Assembly: GCA_026874595.1 (NCBI GenBank)
Contig: CM049309.1
Location: 12,142,576-12,206,575 of the forward strand
Source: Sipunculus nudus
Lineage: Eukaryota; Annelida; Sipuncula; Golfingiida; Sipunculidae
Direction of reading: 5' to 3'
DNA: 64,000 bases
The notes beneath the pieces are model-generated. The model did not search any database, was not told where the DNA came from, and worked only from the letters and a program-made list of their open reading frames with translations. Shown one piece after another: positions 19,040 to 43,700 of this stretch (its first letter is position 1; every line of letters starts with the position of its first letter). A program made the position numbers and the translations under genes.

Positions 19040-22000
19040 TATTACCACGCTCCCAAGTCTATGAATAGCTTTAACTATTTAACTTATAAACACCGCCGTT
19101 CATGGCAGCCATAATTTTAACAGAGGCGCCACATGATGAAGGAAATGTTCCGCGTATGCCGTGTCTTGATTTTTTGGCCTTAAACCGATGTTACTGCGTG
19201 TAAAATAGATAACTATCGAAGATTACTATCTGACCAATAAACACTGCCGATCATGGTGGGTATTTTGACAGGTTAGCTACCTGGTGAAGATAATAGCCAG
19301 TGTGTGCGACTGTCCTCGTCTCGTGGCCTCAAAGCAGAGGGTACCATGTCTAAATATAGATTACTATCTTAATAATAAACACTGCCGATCATGGCTGGTA
19401 TTTTTAGTAAACAGAAACGCCACCTAGTGAAGAAAACAGTCAGTAAGTGCGCCCGTCCTGACCTCGTGGTCTTAAAACTGAAGCCTACACTTTTAAAATA
19501 CTGTAAAATGTTTAACTAACTGGTGGCCTCAAAGCTAAGGGTACCAGGTATATTTAGATTACTATTTCAATAAAAAACACTGCCGATCATGGCAAGAATT
19601 TTAGTTAACAAAAGCGCCACCTGGTGATAAATTAGCTTGTGTGTGTGCCAAGTCTGATCTTGTGGCTTAAAAGCTTAGACTACCGCGTCTTAAAATAGAA
19701 TACTACCTGAGAAGTAAAAAAACGATCAAGCAGGTATTTTAGTGAACAAAAGCGCCACATGGTGAAGAAAATAACCAGTGTGTACGCGCGTCTTGATTTC
19801 GTGGTCTTAAAATTGAAGCTTCCACGTCTAAAAATAGATTACTATCTGACAAGAAAACACTGCCGATCATAACAGGTATTTTAGCGAACAGAAGCGCCAC
19901 CTAGTGAAGAATTAGCCAGTGTGTGCGCCAAGTTTGATCTCGTGGCCTAAAACCACCGCGTCTAAAAATAGATAACTATCTGAATGACAAACACTGCCGA
20001 TCATGGCGGTTATTTTTAGTGAACGGTAGCGCCACCTAGTGAAGAAAATATCCAGTATGTGCGCCCGTCCTGATCTCGTGACCTCAAACCTAAGGCAACC
20101 ACGTCTAAATATAAATTATTATCTGACTTATAAACACTGCCGATCATGGCAGGTATTTATAGTGAACAGAAGCGCCACCTGGTGAAGAAAACTGCCAGTA
20201 TGTGCGCCCGTCCTAATATCGTGACCTCAATGTTAAGGCAACCACGTCTAAATATAAATTATTATCTGACTTATAAACACTGCCGATCATGGCAGGTATT
20301 TATAGTGAACAGAAGCGCCACCTGGTGAAGTAAACTGCCAGTATGTGCGCCCGTCCTAATCTCTTGACCTCAAAGTTAAGGCAACCACGTCTAAATATAA
20401 ATTATTATCTGACTTATAAACACTGCCGATCATGGCAGGTATTTATAGTGAACAGAAGCGCCACCTGGTGAAGTAAACTGCCAGTATGTGCGCCCGTCCT
20501 AATCTCGTGACCTCAAAGTTAAGGCAACCACGTCTAAATATAAATTATTATCTGACTTATAAATACTGCCGATCATGGCAGGTATTTATAGTGAACAGAA
20601 GCGCCACCTGGTGAAGTAAACTGCCAGTATGTGCGCCCGTCCTAATCTCGTGACCTCAAAGTTAAGGCAACCACGTCTAAATATAAATTATTATCTGACT
20701 TATAAATACTGCCGATCATGGCAGGTATTTATAGTGAACAGAAGCGCCACCTGGTGAAGTAAACTGCCAGTATGTGCGCCCGTCCTAATCTCGTGACCTC
20801 AAAGTAAAGGCAACCACGTCTAAATATAAATTAATTTCTGACTTATAAACACTGCCGATCATGGCAGGTATTTTTAGTGAACGGTAGCGCCACCTAGTGA
20901 AGAAAACTGCCAGTATGTGCGCCCGTCCTGATCTCGTGACCTCAAAGCTAAGGCAACCACGTCTAAATATAAATTATTATCTGACTTATAAACACTGCCG
21001 ATCATGGCAGGTATTTATAGTGAACAGAAGCGCCACCTGGTGAAGTAAACTGCCAGTATGTGCGCCCGTCCTAATCTCGTGACCTCAATGTTAAGGCAAC
21101 CACGTCTAAATATATATTATTATCTGACTTATAAACACTGCCGATCATGGCAGGTATTTATAGTGAACAGAAGCGCCACCTGGTGAAGTAAACTGCCAGT
21201 ATGTGCGCCCGTCCTAATCTCGTGACCTCAAAGTTCAGGCAACCACGTCTAAATATAAATTATTATCTGACTTATAAACACTGCCGATCATGGCAGGTAT
21301 TTATAGTGAACAGAAGCGCCACCTGGTGAAGTAAACTGCCAGTATGTGCGCCCGTCCTAATCTCGTGACCTCAAAGTTAAGGCAACCACGTCTAAATATA
21401 AATTATTTTCTGACTTATAAACACGGCCGATCATGGCAGGTATTTATAGTGAACAGAAGCGCCACCTGGTGAAGTAAACTGCCAGTGTGTGCGCCCGTCC
21501 TAAACTCTCGTGGCCTCAAAGCTAAGGATACCCTGTCCAAAAATAGATTACTATCCAAAAAATAAACACTACCAGTCATGGCAGGTATTTTTACAGTCTC
21601 TACAATCGAATAGCCGTGACGTCACGTGAATGGTATTTTTAGTGAACGGTAGCGCCACCTGGTGAAGAAAATAGCCAGTGTATGCGCCTGTCCTGATCTT
21701 GAGGCACCAAAATTAAGGCTACCACGTCTAAATATAGATAACTATCTGAATGATAACGGTGCCGGTCATGGCAGGTATTCTAAGTGAACAGACGCGCAAC
21801 CTAGTGAAGAAAATAGCCAGTGTGTGCGCCCGTCCTGATCTCGTGGTCTCAAAGCTAAGGATACCACGTCTAAACATAGATTACTATTATCTAAATAATA
21901 AACACTGCCGATCATGGCAGGTATTTTTAGTGAACAGAAGCGCAACCTGGTGAAAAAAAAATAGCCAGTGTATGCGCCCGTCTTGATCTTGAGGCCCCAA

Positions 22001-23210
22001 AGTTAAGGCTACCTCGTCTAAGTATAGATTACTATCTGAATGATAAACACTGCCGTTCATGGCAGGTATAAAAGTGATCAGAAGCGCCACCTGGTGAAGA
22101 AAATAGCCAGTGTATGCGTCCTTCCTGATCTCGTGACCTCAAGGTTAGGACTACCACGTCTCAAAATTTACTATTATCTAAATAATAAACACTGCCGTTC
22201 ATGGCAGGTATTAAAGTGATCAGAAGCGCCACCTGGTGAAGAAAATAGCCAGTGTGGATACCACGTCTAAAAATAATCTACTATCTGAATGATAGCGGTG
22301 CCGTTCATGGCAGGTATTCTAAGTGAATAGACGCGCAACCTAGTGAAGAAATCAGCCAGTGTGTTCGCGCGTCCTGATCTCGTGGTCTCAAAGCTAAGGA
22401 TACCAGGTCTAAATATAGATTACTATCTAAATAATAAACACTGCCGGTCATTACAGGTATTTTAAGTGAACAGAAGCGCCACCTGGTGAAGGAAATAGCC
22501 AGTGTGTGCATCCGTCCTGATCTCGTAGCTAAAGCTACCACGTCCAAATATAGATTACTATCTGAATGATAAACACTGCTGATCATGGCGGTTATTTTTA
22601 GTGAACAGTAGCGCCACCTAGTGAAGAAGATAGTATGTGCGCCCGTCCTAATCTCGTGGCCTTAAAGCTAAGGCTACCACGTCTAAATATAGATTACTAT
22701 TTGAATGATAAACACTGCCGATCATGGCAGGTATTTTTAGTGAACAGAAGCGCCACCTAGTGAAGAAAATAGTCAGTGTGTGCGCCCGTCCTTATCCCGT
22801 GGCCTCAAAGCTAAGGCAACCACGTCTGAATATAGATAACTGTCTGACTAATAAACACTGCCTTTCATGGCAGGTATTTTTAGTGAACTGAAGCGCCATT
22901 AGATTAAGATAATAGCCAGTTTAATCGCTAGTCCTTATCTCGTGGCCTCAAAGCTAAGGAAACCATGCTTAAAAATAGATTACTATCTGACTAATAAACA
23001 CTGCCGAACAGGGCATTTATGGTTTTAGTGAATAGAAGCGCCACCTGATGAAGAAAATAGCCAGTGTGTACGCCTGTCCTGACCTCGTGGTTTAAAAACT
23101 GAAGCTGACACTTTTAAAATACTGTAAAAATGTTAAACTAATAAACACAACTAATAAACACTGCATCGCAGCCATTTTGTAAACAGAAGCACCATCTATT
23201 GAGTTGAAAA
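19040..23210. repeat. 143-bp satellite array, about 29 units, with a CTCF-like core
   Basis: The unit is recognised by CTGCCGATCATGGCAGGTAT, then 'AGTGAACAGAAGCGCCACCTGG', 'TGCGCCCGTCCT', 'TCGTGACCTCAAA' and 'CACGTCTAAATATA'. From 20,141 to 21,428 ten consecutive units are spaced by exactly 143 bp and are almost identical; the flanks on both sides are progressively diverged and vary in length. This is the usual pattern of a tandem array homogenised in its middle. Nearly every unit carries GCGCCACCTGGTGA or GCGCCACCTAGTGA, whose reverse complement fits the CTCF consensus CCASYAGRKGGCRS at 13 of 14 positions. No gene is present. As 143 is not a multiple of 3, the short frames seen (about 60 codons) are incidental. 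Confidence 0.95.
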
Positions 23211-26023: not shown

Positions 26024-26395
26024 CTAAAAAAAACACACACACACATATATATAATTATAACAAGTTAGCTAATAACTCAAATGTGAGATACACAGTTTTT
26101 ATAAAAAAAATTATGATGCGTTGAATGTGTCGTAAACTGCAGATTTATATATAATCCAAACTTGCACTTTATAAGAGAAAACCTTTGTTTTTTAATTAAA
26201 AAAGAAACATTTGGAAGAGATATTCCTGACTGGGAAATATGGTTAATTCTACAAAATTAATGTTAAAACCTGTGCATAACCCGAAACCTATAAATGATAG
26301 TATTATATTTTGTATTCATGAAATGACAGTAGGATATCTGGAAAATGAAACAAGCTATTGCAAAAAAAAAATTAAACAAGTTACCATTTACTTAC

Positions 26396-28262
26396 CTGTA
26401 TAGTGATAAAACTCTCTTCGCCCTGTTGGCCCAGCGATACCCAAGGTGGCCCTTCTGGCCGCGCGGCCTCTAGGTGGCGCTCTTGCTGGCGGATGAGGCA
26501 TCATATCTGGTTTTGTCGGATCTTCTTCTAGGATGACAGACAGAGGGCGGTTTGTCGGGAATGGCCTGAACTCTAAAACCGCGTCCATTAGGGCTTTCAC
26601 TCTTTTAGTCATGACAGCACAAGACGGGTAAACAAAACCAGATGGACTGTCTCCGTCAGCATGTTCCTCTGGTGTCAGTTGATTCTGGCCACTGTCTCTA
26701 CCAACATGTGCCTCCGGTGTCAAAGGACTCTGGGTGTTGTCTCTACAATTATGTGTCTCTGGTGTCAATGGACTCTGGGCACTGTCTCTACCAATATGTG
26801 CGTCTTGTGTCAAGGGACTCTGTGTATTGTCTCTACCATTATGTGCCTCTGGTTTCAATGGACTCTGGGTATTGTCTCTATCATTATGTGTCTCTGGCGT
26901 CAATAGCCTCTGAGCACTGTCTCTACCAACATGTGCCTCTTGTGTCAGTGGACTAGTACTGCCATCTACAGGCGGTTTTGGCGACAGAGGGGGTAGAACT
27001 GTGTACTTACTCGGAAAATCTGATTTTGGGGGCAAAGTCTGAAGTGACATACAGGACGACTTGCGACATAAGGCATTGTCGTTAATTGTTTTTGAAAACC
27101 TTCGTTCAAAGGAAGATTTGGGTTTAGCCGATGGCACACGGTTTTGTGTGACCGGTGGCAGCCTGGGAGGTTTTGGTGAGACAAATGTTGTTTTGTCGCC
27201 GTCTGAGGACTGCATGAGAGTCGGAAGCTTGGGGCGTTTCTGTCCGTCCAAAGGTTTCAGAGTCCATCTCGTGTCATTAACACTGACAGTAAATGCCATA
27301 GCCTTGGGCTTTGGATCTACAAATGTAGAGGGTTTACGTAAGTCCGGCAGGGCCGGCTGGTCCTTGAAACGTCTGCGAAGATTTCCCGAAGAGAGTGCTT
27401 TATTCTCCGCAATTTGTGGCAGTTTAGGTAATGCAGAAGTGCCACCATTTGTCAGTGTTGTTTGTTGGGATGACGTCATGTCAACAGGTCTCACTGACCT
27501 GGTATCATTATGAATGGGACTTGGTCGGTTCGTATGTTCTTTCACTTTGCCTGATGAATTTGATTTCGCGTTATTACGTTTACCATTATTCACAACTGGG
27601 GGCAGTTTTGGTAATACGGAAGTGCCACCATTATTAATCATTGTTTGTTTGGATGAAGTCATTTCAAAAGGTTTTACTGACCTTGTATCATCATGAATGG
27701 GACTTTGTCGGTTCGTCCGTTTCGTCGATTTCGTGTTATTTTGTCTGTCTTTTTTACGTGCAGGTCTGGGTATTTTGCTCCCAGGAATCTGGGTCTGAGA
27801 GATTTTAGATGAGCTATCGGTTAAATAAAGTTGCTGTGAAAGCTTGCCATCCAGGCGTTTCATCTCTGTAGTCGGGCTAATAGGGAGAGGAATTCTGGAC
27901 TTCCTGCGCTGAAAGGACTCAACACGACGTCTAACAACAAATCCTCTTATAAGTCGGGGGATTTTAGTCCAAGTTGTTACTTTAATGCGTCTGCGGGAAC
28001 CAGGACGCCCTGGTTGGTTTTCCCGGCATGCTGGGGGTTTGGTGCGGGGTTTTGTTGCTGAAATAACATTTTCAGAACATGAACTGAGTTGGATTTTAAA
28101 CAGTGACTGGCCTGTTTCAGCGTTGGAGTTGGTTCTCTCAACTGAAGCCTTCTCCATCGCGATCTGGCTGTTGTCACGTGACAGTGATATCATGGTCGGA
28201 TGGACATCTTCTGTCCGAGAAGTGGTGTGGTTTTCGAACATTCGTTGGTTTGTTTTCTCCAT
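26396..28262 (-). CDS. Large exon of an unrecognised basic, Pro/Ser-rich repeat protein
   Basis: One open frame of 622 codons plus one base starts at ATG 28,262 and ends at an ACAG|GTAAGT donor. The ATG is the first codon after a TTTTGCTTCCAG acceptor, so the 5' UTR is spliced on. The protein is low-complexity, basic and probably largely disordered. Residues 101-114 (IPRLIRGFVVRRRV) match the calmodulin-binding IQ pattern IQxxxRGxxxR except that Gln is Pro. A block containing SPIHDDTRSVKPFEMTSS is present twice (about 186-227 and 249-285). Residues about 433-537 hold seven 15-residue repeats of the type SPLTPETHNGRDNTQ. The C-terminal part has a Pro/Arg-rich patch (PPARAPPRGRAARR). Together these suggest a cytoskeletal or ciliary scaffold, but no orthologue is recognised and function is unknown. 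Antisense frames over this exon are shadows. Confidence 0.85.
26650..26965 (-). repeat. 45-bp coding minisatellite (7 copies of 15 codons)
   Basis: Inside the large exon, seven copies encode variants of SPLTPEAHNGRDNTQ. The variable sites alternate (TPETHN.RDNTQ and TQEAHVGRDSAQ types), which suggests growth by duplication of pairs. The reading frame is kept throughout and the antisense frame is also open. Confidence 0.9.
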
Positions 28263-29817
28263 CTGGAAGCAAAATGTTTAACCTTAACTCTGTGTTATAT
28301 TGAAAATGAAATTTAATACCATAGATATTTTGAAAACCGAGGTATTCATTGATTTGACCTACTTCACAAATATACAATTAAATTATTCAAATATTTGTAC
28401 AAGTATTTTCTTATTATTATAAAAGCTAAATCGAGCTTAAATGATATGAACTGGATCATAAGAATGGCTCAGACAATTCCATTTGTACCCGAAACGCCCT
28501 TATCAATATCATGGACCCTTTGTATAGGCTATGTGTATGTGTGTATGCAAGTGTGGACACAAATTGTAATAGAATAATGTGGCATTTCATTGTATAGGTC
28601 TAGATCATTGGCTTTTGCTTCATAGGATTTTATTTCGGGGGGGGGGGGGAGGGGGGGGGGGGGTTACCATTTAGAGCGAGAAGTACTGCCTGTAAAAAAG
28701 GTCCACAGTTCCTTGGGGGGGGGGCGAGCTAGCTGTAAAAATATGGAGAAACACGTGTCTTAACGTATTTGTTTCTTCTTAAGCCTTTCACCCCTTGGAT
28801 CCCCCCCCCCCCCCCCCCCGCCTTAAAAATAATATGTTTGAAATATAGTGACAAAAATAGAGCTGTGTTTTCTTGAGGCTGATCAGGGGTTTTAGGGATG
28901 CTGGGAATTTGCTGCCTAAACTATTTACAAAAGACAATAATTTGCATTTGAAGCGAGAGCTGTATTGGGGAGCTTCATAGAACAAGCCTCACAGCACAGA
29001 CGGTGACCTTTCAGATCATGTGTACGTGACCTTAACTATGACGTCATATCACTGTCGTCATGGTGTCGGGGTCATACTGTACTCTTGCTAGGGGGCTTGG
29101 GACAAAGGCTAGAAATGGATATTATGAAACATTTATTTTTTAGCCTACAGTTCTTATCCTTTCCATATTAAAATATTATATAATATATATAAAAAGAAAT
29201 GTTTATGTGGCTTTGATACAGCGACTGGGAAAAAGTGCTAATGTTCACACACCGACAAACTTATAAGTTATAGGGCTAAGACTTAGGCCTATCAATTAGC
29301 ATACCTAATCCCGACTTTCACAACATTTATCAAAATATCTGTATAATTTATATCAATTATTAACGTTCAACAAGGTGATAACAGCATTTCTTTACTGTGT
29401 GGACATAGGCCCAGACATATTTGACAATTTATACATTTCCCTGCTGCGGTTATGATTGAAACGCCTTACAGGATAGGCCTATCCTATCGATCTACATAAA
29501 CAAAAGTTATATATTTCAATTTTTATAAAATCAGAATCATAATTTCCCCCAATGAATTAAGGGCTTTGTGATTTTATTGTCAGAACTTACTCAGGCTGGG
29601 CCCTATATTGATAATTTAATATCATTAGGCCTAAGGTTTATTCTAAAATAATGAGGCTACTGATTTTACAGTGTGTACATCATATACTCCACCTTCCTGT
29701 AGGATTAAACGAAAGTAAACTACTGAATAATAATATTACATAAAATTCTGAAATTATCGGTGGATCCTGTACTTATTGTTGATGTCTATCACGTCAAATA
29801 GAGGTAGGTTTACTTAC
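28263..29817 (-). other. 5' intron of the minus-strand gene
   Basis: A GTAAGT donor at 29,817 pairs with the TTGCTTCCAG acceptor before the ATG. It contains long G runs (28,637-28,663 and near 28,715), a C run (28,801-28,819) and a TGACGTCA palindrome at 29,039-29,046. No coding exon was recognised. Confidence 0.5.
28637..28819. repeat. Paired G-run and C-run homopolymers
   Basis: A G-run of about 25 with one A, a G8 run and then a C19 run lie within 180 bp. This could form a G-quadruplex or a G:C hairpin; lengths may be assembly-dependent. Confidence 0.8.
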
Positions 29818-37773: not shown

Positions 37774-40700
37774 CTGAAAAATGAAAAAGTTATTTCTTCC
37801 ATTTTGTAAGCTATAATATTGCATGAAAACCCCATTTATTCAAACCATACTGCACTTGACTCAATGTTAATTAGTTCAATGATTACAGAAAAATCATTCA
37901 AACTCATGATCAACAGATATATTGATAATCTGATATATTAACATGCTAATATCTGAAGGCCATATTCATATTTCATACCAATAAAACTACCATCGCTAAA
38001 ACTGCACACACAAAATTAAGAGAACTGGATATTTTGAGTTTTCGTGTGATGGAACTGATTTATCACACTGAGTTTTTATTAAAAATAACATCATCTTTTA
38101 ATCGTTTGATCTCAAACCAAGCTGATATGATTTATCACTAAACCAATTATATCAATATTAAGTTAGAACAAAAACAAAATTTTGTTTCTCATTAACTATT
38201 ACTCAGAAATTTGTACGGCTGGGTGAATTCTATTAACCGTTTTACCTATTATAGGTTTTTGACAAAAATATATAATCAGGGGATAAAAATAATAACAGAA
38301 ATGTTTTGCTATATTACAGGTTGAAATTCAATTAAACAACAGGAAATTTTATAAAAATTTTCTGGTCTGATTCGCTGGAGCTGAAAATCCGGGATTTTTT
38401 TTCTTTACTTACCATGCTGTATAAGTACGACTGCAGACATGAGGGCCAGCTCTGTTTCTGTGAGTCTGTATGATATCACATCACGCGCAAACTCAAATAT
38501 ACTCTGCATCAGCATCTTCTCCTCATCATCTGTAGATAAAAGATAAGAAAATTAAGATAAAACATGAGATATTACAGTGAGGTGCATTAAACATGCTAGG
38601 ATCATATGAAGTTTGCTTAAATTAATATTTTTCTTTTTTCTTGATGAATAATCCAATCACTGCCCTTGAAATAAGAGAGTAGTAATATTATGTTCATTTT
38701 TTTTCAATATATTCAATACAAAAAATTCTTTCAGCTGATTTTACAGAAGTGTCCTAGACTTGGTAACAATATAAAACCAGTACATGAAATTCACTGTTTA
38801 TATCAGCAGGCATACTTTTTTTATTAACTATAGACTTTCAAATTCTGTATTTGATCTGACCAATGGCTTTGACCTTGCTCCTCTCCTCAGCATATTCTAC
38901 TACATCAAAATAACAAGTTAAAAAATATGACAATTTTTCTACACACATGACACGCTGACCTGATCAGCTTGAAATTAATAAAACATTAACAATTCTCTGT
39001 TCAACAGAACTGTGCTAATTTGGGGTAATTTTCTGAACAAGGCAATACTACTTACCTAAATTTATAAATGCATCAAGAGGAAGGCAGATATTGCCAAAGG
39101 CAACAGTATTTGTGGCAATGTCGTAGGCTCGACACAATCTCATCAGGGCGATCTCAAAGCTCCCTGAAATAATACAACAGGCTGAATTATAATCATTCTG
39201 ACACCACACTAATTTAACTGCTAAAAATGTTTCTGTTTAAAGGGGCCTATACAAATATCTGACTATTACTGAATAAAGATCATCCCTTGAAAGTTTTTCC
39301 TAAATAGCCTGATCCCACCACACACAGGCTGTTTGCTTGGGGGATACCCATGTGTTTATAACATGTGGGGGAGGGGGCTGCCAAAATATTCCAAACAGTT
39401 TCAAGAAAGACATCTGGCGCAAGTCTGACAAACCAGTTTTGCAACTAGTGACCTTTCAACTTCTCCACACATGCAACCATACACCTAAGGTGACATGATT
39501 TTTTTTTTTCATTTGTCAACAAAGCTATGTTTATCAACAGCATGTAAATAAAAAAACTCATAAATGTATCACAGAGGTGTTATAAGAGCTTTTCCGAAAA
39601 GGAATTACCTAGATTTCATTTATATGTACAAAATGTATGCCAGAAACCAAAAGTTCTATAATTTTACTCAAGTCTTTTAAAGACCAAAGAATACCCTTAT
39701 CCTGTTGTTGGGTCAATTTGATTATATAATGGAAAAGTGTTACTTTAACCTCCCTCCCAAAGTCAGAATCAAGACCTCGTTAGCTAACACAAGGTTAATA
39801 CATGGCACTAGTTCCTGCAATAATCAAGGCTGCAATACACTGGTGCAGGGTACATGCATGGTAGATTGTTAAATGTAAACTACATAGGAACTGGTCTGAA
39901 AGACCACCTCTCTTATAAGACCACCAGTCTATAAAGACCACCCTTGGGTGAACAATAAGAAGTGACACTGGTTATAACTGACCTGTCTAATAAGATAACC
40001 TGTGAATTAAGACCACTTCTGGCCAGTCCCATGGGTTGACTCTGAACACAGGTTTCACTGTATATTGCATTTTTAATGTATAGCACCATAAACTGTACTT
40101 TGAGTGAAGTACTGAAACATGTAACAATAAATGACAATTTTTTTCTCACCTCCTTTCAGCAGCATGATCTGATCATCCTGTAACAAGTTCATGAAGCCAG
40201 GAACCATCTTGGCAAACTCTATGATTTGCTGAACTGTGGCCGTCACTTTTTCTGCTATTTCTTGCCATAGCTGGGAATGACTCTGTAATAGTAAGCATAG
40301 AATGCTCAATTATACACAGTAATCATGTATCAGAAACCACAGATTGCTTAATTATAAACAGTAATCAATGTGTCTTCAAAAGTAATATGGAAGGCTATGT
40401 TATATTTGTGTGTGTGTGTGTGTTAGTTGTAGTATGAATATCAGCTGAACAGTATCATATTGACTGAATTCAGTTTTTTTTGTCACTACCACAATAACAG
40501 CTATAAACAGATAATTGATACCATACTGAGTAAACACAGGATCATTTCCATACTAGTACTGTTCAAATTTAAACAAGTGGTGGTCCATTGTACTTTGTAT
40601 AAAATTGCTGGTTCACTGAATAACATAAAGCTGGATTTAAGCCAAGTGTATAGCAACATCTAGTTGTTAATATAGAAGACATTTTGTTTAAAATGACCAT

Positions 40701-43700
40701 ATTTTAAACCTTTCTGGCAGCATGTTGAGTTAATAGAGGTTGGACTCTTGTACCAACCACATTTTCTCTTGTATTTACCTTATTTTTTTTTTCTGGCTGC
40801 CTTATTGTTAATACAGGCTCTGTTCTTGTATCTACATATAGGACTTACCATATTTTTAAACCATTCTAATTGTTTCTATGTTAATACAGGCTGTGTTCTT
40901 GTATCTAGACTTACCATATTTTTTAACCTTTCTAAATGTCTGTATGTTAATACAGGCTGTGTTCTTGTAACTAGACTTACCATATTTTTTAACCTTTCTA
41001 AATGTCTGTATGTTGATACAGGCTGTGTTCTTGTAACTAGACTTACCATATTTTTTAACCTTTCTAAATGTCTGTATGTTGATACAGGCTGTGTTCTTGT
41101 AACTAGACTTACCATATTTTTTAACCTTTCTAAATGTCTGTATGTTTATACAGGCTGTGTTCTTGTAACTAGACTTACCATATTTTTTAACCTTTCTAAA
41201 TGTCTGTATGTTGATACAGGCTGTGTTCTTGTAACTAGACTAACCATATTTTTTAACCTTTCTAAATGTCTGTATGTTGATACAGGCTGTGTTCTTGTAA
41301 CTAGACTTGCCATATTTTTTAACCTTTCTAAATGTCTGTATGTTGATTCAGGCTGTGTTCTTGTTACTAGACTTACCATATTTTTTAACCTTTCTAAATG
41401 TCTGTATGTTAATAAAGGCTGTGTTCTTGTAACTAGACTTACCATATTTTTCAACCTTTCTAAATGTCTGTATGTTGATAAAGGCTGTGTTCTTGTAACT
41501 AGACTTACCATATTTTTTAACCTTTCTAAATGTCTGTATGTTGATACAGGCTGTGTTCTTGTTACTAGACTTACCATAACATTTTTTTAACCTTTCTAAA
41601 TGTCTGTATGTTGATACAGGCTGTGTTCTTGTAACTAGACTTGCCATATTTTTTAACCTTTCTAAATGTCTGTATGTTGATACAGGCTGTGTTCTTGTAA
41701 CTAGACTTGCCATATTTTTTAACCTTTCTAAATGTCTGTATGTTGATACAGGCTGTGTTCTTGTTACTAGACTTACCATATTTTTTAACCTTTCTAAATG
41801 TCTGTATGTTGATACAGGCTGTGTTCTTGTAACTAGACTTACCATATTTTTAAACCTTTCTAAATGTCTGTATGTTGATACAGGCTGTGTTCTTGTAACT
41901 AGACTTACCATATTTTTTAACCTTTCTAAATGTCTGTATGTTGATACAGACTGTGTTCTTGTAACCAGACTTACCATATTTTTAAACCTTTCTAAATGTC
42001 TGTATGTTAATACAGGCTGGGTTTTTGTATCCAGACTTACCATATTTTTTAATCTTTCTAAATGTCTGTATGTTAATACAGGCTGTGTTCTTGTAACTAG
42101 ACTTACCATATTTTTTTACCTTTCTAAATGTCTGTATCTTAATACAGGCTGTGTTCTTGTAACTAGCCTTACCATATTTTTAAACCTTTCTAAATGTCTG
42201 TATGTTGATACAGGCTGGGTTCTTGTATCTAGACTTACCATATTTTTAAACCTTTCTAAATGTCTGTATGTTAATACAGGCTGGGTTCTTGTATCTAGAC
42301 TTACCATATTTTTAAACCTTTCTAACTGCTCATGTGACAGGGGAAGTGCCCTCATCTGGTCTATCTGGTCCAGTGTAAAAAGGCATGTTCTGGTATGGGC
42401 ATCTGAGATGGCCTTTGTTAATAAACCTACAAAAATCAACAGGACAATAGTAAGTAAAGACATTTTATTAAAGACATAGGGCAACTCAACAGGATACAGC
42501 TGTACAAACACAATCACACATAAACATTAATCTGAAGAAAAAGTTACTGCTAAACAATATGTGGAATCTCTGTATATAAACACACAAGAACAGATACAAT
42601 CAGACACATGACTGTATAAGCACTGCATCCCTCAGGCTGTCTCACCAACTAGAGTGATGTTCTGTGATGTCTTATGATATGATATCTTATGATTTGCATT
42701 GGTAATCTTAAACCACAGCTTTTGATTGTTTTGTCTTCAACCATTTATCACACATTATAATACCCTGTGACTGTCTCTGATGTTATGCTGATGTATACTG
42801 TGGATCTGGTGACCTGTTAACACAGCTATCTGTCAGACAACCTTGGATAAAAGTTGTGCATTTTGATATGACCAGAATGTTTTGTTTGGAGTGTCTCCAC
42901 CAGGTGTCTCTCTGCTATTGATCACAAAGGAATGGCATCTGTTGGACAACTGGAAAACTGTTCTGTTTAAGTTGCTTCATATCACTATAGGTAACACCCC
43001 ACAACCAAAACAATCTTCAGATATTTAACAATAGATAAGTACATGTATCACCAAAGCAATATCTGCTGTGTACCAGGTTCTGAATGTTTAAAATTAGATC
43101 TGATAATTCACCATCCTTAAATTCCTCGAAGTCATACTGACATAAATTTGTCATTAGTTAAGTATAATTTCTTTATTTGTTGTTTAAAATAATGAATAAT
43201 GATTACTTTTAAAAGTTTACAATCCATATACAAACATTAAAATGATATATATGGCCCCTGGAACAGTGTTTAAACACTGGGGTTATGTAATGATAATACA
43301 ATATTGATGCTCTCTGAAAATCTGTTTTTATTAAAAAGCTAATGAAGATCTGTTACACCATTTCACATTGACACAGGAATCGTCATCAAGAAGTTACAAA
43401 TGATGCTGATTTGTTAACATATAATCAGCTGTCAGAATGCAGCTGGTCCCAGCTTGGCTGTAGTGCGGGAGGATATTTAACAGACACACCTGCTGAACTG
43501 ACTTAGTTTTATCCAGGTAAATGGCAATAGGTTGGTGCAGCTAGTGCCTGTACTGGCAGCATATGATGTTTGATGCAGTCTTGACAAGAGGTGATGAAAA
43601 TCAAGCATAGACTGATGTCGGGAGAGGGCCATATCAGCTGTTACCTGGCAAGATTTGGCTTTATTTCCTCGTACAACTGATGCACTCAGTATCTACTATG

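Follow-up and report, generated by a model that had tools for sequence, protein, structure and literature searches.

The first ligand-binding-domain (LBD) exon of a ROR/HR3 nuclear receptor gene of Sipunculus nudus ends in a splice donor that is repeated, together with the last bases of the exon, in a tandem array of 23 donor-like sites. We consider it likely that this array is a neutral exon-end minisatellite which is spliced mainly from its first donor (donor 1). It looks like a by-product of the many tandem repeats of this genome and not like a regulatory device, and chance does not explain a 22-fold repeat with 95% matches. The analysed DNA was a stretch of 64,000 nt (the window), and the coordinates below are those of the window, with the gene and the array on its minus strand.

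Nine exons with compatible phases were recognised in the receptor gene: two zinc-finger (DBD) exons (52492-52407 and 50832-50691), two hinge exons (49680-49536 and 47171-47011) and five LBD exons. The first LBD exon (42305..42426) was delimited by exon reading and by the alignment to ROR-beta; it has 122 nt and enters in phase 1 and leaves in phase 0. The array is followed by the next LBD exon (40150..40282, phase 0) and by the remaining three (39163-39056, 38529-38413 and 37773-37514). From the DBD exons onward the reading frame was intact over the nine exons and ended in a TAG stop codon at 37516-37514. The joined protein matched Pfam zf-C4 (5.3e-32) and Hormone_recep (4.4e-17), and the best PDB match of the LBD was ROR-beta (E 2.2e-47). 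Judged by this sequence comparison, which involved no tree, the gene is an intact-looking ROR/HR3 (NR1F) nuclear receptor, as a preliminary description of this DNA had proposed. Four NCBIfam matches of the receptor, all far below the cut-off, were considered chance. The junction of donor 1 with the acceptor that precedes 40282 is in phase 0 on both sides, and the intron so defined has 2022 nt. Given that the ROR-beta alignment was gapless across the junction FKNM|SHSQLWQ, donor 1 (42305/42304) and this acceptor were taken as the original junction, which agrees with the 42304/42305 position previously named. Combining this alignment with our assumed helix placement, the junction presumably lies just before ROR helix 3.

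The repeat unit overlaps the exon, since it consists of the last 21 nt of the first LBD exon plus 45 nt of intron (66 nt), exactly as it had been delimited before, and the array covers the exon end and runs on into the intron, of which it occupies about 1.5 kb. TRF placed it at 40842-42325 (period 66, 22.4 copies, 95% matches). By this output and a donor census, the 23-donor array was placed at 40848..42304, with first intron bases from 42304 down to 40848. The recount of the donors reproduced the earlier figures without change (18 GTAAGT, 1 GTAAGG, 1 GTTAGT and 3 GCAAGT), so that every unit carries a donor-like site, four of them (the three GCAAGT and the GTTAGT) being weak. The reported 66-bp spacing was found throughout the ladder except for a single step of 70 nt (donor 12, 41574). 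The array had been assigned to 40844..42426 and does lie there, but its upper edge is at about 42325, 42426 being the first base of the exon, and past 40848 two decayed copies (40697..40847) bring it to about 40697. For each decayed copy the alignment to the unit was better than all 300 shuffles; the first still has a donor-like site (AAG|GTAAAT, G at 40778), while the second has lost it (GTCATT, G at 40697).

The unit of 66 nt corresponds to 22 codons, and no stop interrupts the consensus when it is read in the frame of the exon; therefore, splicing from donor 2 would lengthen the protein by 22 residues and splicing from donor 3 by 44, both in frame. The predicted insert from donor 2 is [22 protein letters not shown], donor 3 adds a close copy, and each predicted insert repeats the residues found at the exon end. 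In the third unit there is a TAA at 42118-42116, the first in-frame stop met when the exon is extended. It is located between donors 3 and 4, and donors 4-23 are therefore all behind a stop codon. Further exon junctions lie downstream of this TAA, and mRNAs spliced from donors 4-23 would be expected to undergo nonsense-mediated decay. When three consensus repeat peptides were joined, they matched Sp-CxC, a small bacterial Pfam family, with 28 bits, half a bit above the cut-off and without any single stretch passing; this was taken as a chance match on an artificial repeat.

This frame could be thought to belong to a regulated isoform device, which we regard as unlikely. Donors 1-3 would then give LBD isoforms with +0, +22 and +44 residues, and the later donors would act as a poison outlet tuning the receptor level by decay. 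The inserts, repeating [10 protein letters not shown], would be placed just before the segment aligned with the start of ROR helix 3, as far as our assumed position of this helix holds. The open unit of 22 codons, the junction in phase 0 on both sides and the absence of any stop before the interval between donors 3 and 4 speak for such a device, and in human IFI6 two downstream repeat units act as donors and yield three mRNA species, according to a passage of PMC4526556. Against it, the derived states of the units in the exon frame comprised 13 nonsynonymous and 6 synonymous changes and 3 stops, and since frame 2 gave the same counts there is no sign of coding constraint. In addition, the frame is not kept by the other donor ladders of the genome described below: extension of the exon past the first donor reached a stop after 1 nt in L095 (in its PH-like frame), 6 nt in L072 and 48 nt in L073. 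In L088 the stop came after 1 nt in the likelier frame; L092 and L093, whose available sequence reaches 14 and 8 nt past the donor, were left out of this comparison. The broader proposal is improbable: a ladder class recurrent in the genome, with the HR3 ladder setting receptor output through LBD length isoforms from donors 1-3, in which the stretch preceding helix 3 is repeated, and a drain to decay from donors 4-23, and with copy number tuning the dose between individuals.

With respect to donor strength, RNAduplex gave a U1 pairing energy of -8.6 kcal/mol at 18 sites and of -8.5 at one; GTTAGT had -4.7 and each of the three GCAAGT had -3.9. The idea that U1 faces near-equal 5' splice sites was thus upheld for 19 of the 23 donors (-8.5 or -8.6 kcal/mol) but not for the four weak ones. 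The other mapped donors of the receptor gene ranged from -5.1 to -10.0 kcal/mol, and the strong array sites are inside this range. Such sites might serve, unspliced, as a platform recruiting many U1 snRNPs, which would shield the 2-kb intron against premature polyadenylation or make exon definition faster. Beyond the pairing energies, what speaks for this function is that suppression of polyadenylation by U1 has been described up to 1 kb in a passage of the literature. It nevertheless has little probability in our opinion, given that the donor sites are not preferentially conserved.

Conservation was assessed in the 21 units of exactly 66 nt, leaving out the 70-nt unit, which starts with GCAAGT. 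Derived states numbered 3 at the six donor positions versus 19 at the other 60, and minority cells 4/126 versus 38/1260 (42/1386 overall). As few derived states as in the donor, or fewer, were found in 61 of the 66 circular windows of six positions. When the donor was widened by its three exon-side bases, there were 3 states at 9 sites versus 19 at 57, and 4/189 minority cells versus 38/1197 in the rest; 34 of the 66 nine-position windows had as few. No variation was seen in the nine bases directly before the donor. Donor positions are thus no better conserved than others; the power of this test is modest because, through homogenisation, the copies differ by only 5.3% on average. The mean number of differences from the consensus was 3.5 near the exon, 4.0 at the far end and 1.0 in the core (the grouping being ours), and edges more diverged than the core are the usual sign of homogenisation within a growing array.

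The same data bear on the possibility that the assembly inflated the copy number. Many copies have their own differences and divergence rises toward the edges; of the 21 equal-length units, three match the consensus at every base. An artefact is very improbable, although the exact copy number may be off. The least probable reading, in which each unit would be a micro-exon (ACAG plus 42 in-frame bases, that is, 14 codons open in the consensus, plus a donor) that could be spliced in singly, was dropped for its poor pyrimidine tract. The pyrimidine fraction is 0.40 in the 20 bases before ACAG and 0.25 to 0.55 at the remaining AGs of each unit; at the nine acceptors mapped in the gene, the 18 bases that precede the AG reach 0.67-0.83. 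Moreover, adjacent units would leave an intron of 24 nt.

The origin of the array was approached by a search of the genome (1.43 Gb) with one unit, which passes over very common words. All 24 matches were at the HR3 locus, the exon end included, and this restriction fits a duplication of the end of this very exon. An origin from an interspersed or mobile element was dropped, as this search, with very common words skipped, gave no match elsewhere. We propose that a 66-nt segment across the splice donor, with 21 nt of exon and 45 nt of intron, would have been duplicated in tandem, and that slippage or unequal exchange may then have brought the array to about 25 copies and homogenised its core, a process suggested by the observed pattern. 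All the extra copies lie downstream of an intact donor 1 and leave the exon unharmed, and for this reason the expansion would have been nearly neutral.

U1 snRNP would probably sit on many of the sites, while splicing to the acceptor before 40282 would start mostly from donor 1. Donors 2 and 3, used to a minor extent, would give in-frame inserts of 22 and 44 residues, and transcripts from later donors would be rare and, with their premature stop, removed by nonsense-mediated decay. In a passage of PMC5389562, occupancy of alternative 5' sites by several U1 is stated to shift the choice between them and to keep efficiency, unless the sites are very close and hinder each other. By analogy with human IFI6, donor 1 is expected to dominate and donors 2 and 3 to be used to some extent. 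It must be noted that some findings speak against neutrality. The length of the unit is divisible by three, no stop interrupts its consensus, and three donors are in frame, which could be more than luck. Likewise, the nine bases before the donor are invariant and minority cells are fewer in the donor with its exon-side bases than in the rest, though this is ordinary among windows of nine.

The preference for a neutral minisatellite also draws on other donor ladders of the genome. When every GGTAAGT triplet was counted genome-wide, 3443 were found at 52-82 nt spacing and 1789 at 21-51 nt, in comparison with 3478 and 2941 triplets of the reversed pattern used as control. These counts gave no excess of donor-motif arrays over the control, which equalled or outnumbered them, so that arrays show no preference for the donor motif as such. 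For acceptor motifs, triplets numbered 13519 for TTTCAG versus 10449 for the reversed control, and 3668 for TTTCAGG versus 4848, by motif counts alone.

Among the matches listed, which cover contig C1 and the start of C2, there were 18 further distinct GGTAAGT arrays, not including that of HR3. The upstream side was examined in 17 of them, C1:1727903 being left out, and exons without a domain match were judged by eye. Among these listed matches, four of the 17 arrays begin at a convincing exon that has an acceptor, an open frame and an end repeated in the unit, and two (L072 and L088) probably do; exon-anchored arrays are thus few in number. The exon of L073 has an AWS domain (Pfam 1.6e-19), which we take to be of the SET methyltransferase type, and its end is repeated in 24/26 bases. 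That of L092 is EDEM1-like (PDB 2.7e-8; Pfam GH47 4.9e-9; 23/24 bases), and L095 has a PH-like exon (PDB 0.00096; Pfam 0.023, below the cut-off; 20/21 bases). L093 has an open frame of 40 codons without a match in the PDB search (20/21 bases). In L072 the peptide had no Pfam match (28/32 bases), and L088, also without Pfam match, has a poor acceptor (27/33 bases). L090 and L091 were not counted as ladders because, although exon-like, their exon end is not clearly repeated; a PDB search with the L091 exon gave zero matches. The remaining nine of the 17 arrays examined had no evident exon. In seven of these nine (L025, L070, L077, L085, L086, L087 and L094) the true edge may have been missed, since copy-like sequence continues upstream of the tested point. 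In L073, positions 1463-1891 (G000:C1:6952869-6953297) contain the end of the AWS exon and its GGTAAGT donor about 9 times at 47-48 nt.

As in the HR3 array, exon end and donor run head to tail into the intron in the four convincing and two probable ladders of the S. nudus genome. They differ in that their first units have 28 to 50 nt and fewer donors were seen, versus 66 nt and 23 donors in HR3, and their protein products are unrelated to the HR3 receptor. Their anchoring at exons may be explained by frequency. Outside the array, GGTAAGT occurs seven times in the window and four of the seven are donors (three of them mapped in HR3 and one inferred from the end of a long open frame). In gene-rich sequence, perhaps about half of the solitary GGTAAGT are genuine donors, a rough figure from one small, gene-rich window. 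Since four of seven are donors, random seeding would often hit a donor; randomly seeded arrays would then often be exon-anchored, and therefore no special mechanism is called for. Tandem repeats are also frequent in the window, where five arrays with at least 5 copies cover 6326 of the 64,000 bases (TRF rows, with periods under 12 left out and overlapping rows merged). The proposal that the ladder is a regulatory device found no support in these tests: its donor sites are as variable as other positions, 20 of the 23 are behind a stop, and ladders occur in unrelated genes.

The closest known system is the human IFI6 gene (6-16, G1P3), for which a minisatellite with multiple splice donor sites has been reported (Turri, Cuin and Porter 1995, Nucleic Acids Res. 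23:1854); as far as the cited portions of this literature go, the HR3 array is the same kind of object. The novelty implied by the earlier remark, which knew of no nuclear receptor with such a structure, was therefore overstated, even if among the open-licence papers listed no description of a donor array in a nuclear receptor was found, and nothing on donor minisatellites or on HR3 splicing in molluscs that is nearer than the citations of the IFI6 paper. Both are minisatellites at an exon/intron boundary with a donor per unit and several donors downstream of the exon. The IFI6 units reportedly have 12 nt and lie at the exon 2 boundary; those of HR3 have 66 nt, the host is the LBD exon of a nuclear receptor, and the scale of the array is different. 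Use of downstream donors is reported for IFI6 in the passage of PMC4526556, whereas those of HR3 are candidate sites. Competition between alternative 5' splice sites with multiple U1 occupancy was studied by Hodson (2012, as cited in a passage of PMC5389562) on substrates which, like HR3, have several donors on one RNA, experimentally in that case. Novel introns arising by tandem duplication in Drosophila are the subject of PMC2891723.

A single acceptor faced by as many as 23 donors, of which 19 are nearly equal, is a natural experiment on 5' splice site choice by the spliceosome, in which donor 1 may be used because it is the first, through exon definition, or not preferentially. Since several unrelated genes seemingly have ladders, their units ranging from 28 to 66 nt, the question of donor choice is testable by RNA-seq alone. 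If the ladders are neutral, splicing would be tolerant of surplus donors and minisatellites can lengthen introns from exon edges.

Some other traits of the window were recorded. Most units of the array contain a short inverted repeat (40842-42325), e.g., CTGTAT-GTTG-ATACAG. Folding of four units was not stronger than that of shuffles (z-score -0.20) and Rfam gave zero matches in the 64-kb window at gathering thresholds, so an RNA structure element was dropped as the identity of the array. The plus strand of 40697-42479 is also open in two frames of 297 and 299 codons, and most units have on that strand an acceptor-like GATACAG|G or AATACAG|G; both the frames and the motifs are probably accidental. 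Elsewhere, an array of 3.5 kb with units of about 143 bp is located at 19575-23090. On the minus strand, an open frame of 629 codons (26388-28277) ends near a GGTAAGT donor and includes a tandem repeat of 45 bp (15 codons) at 26661-26954.
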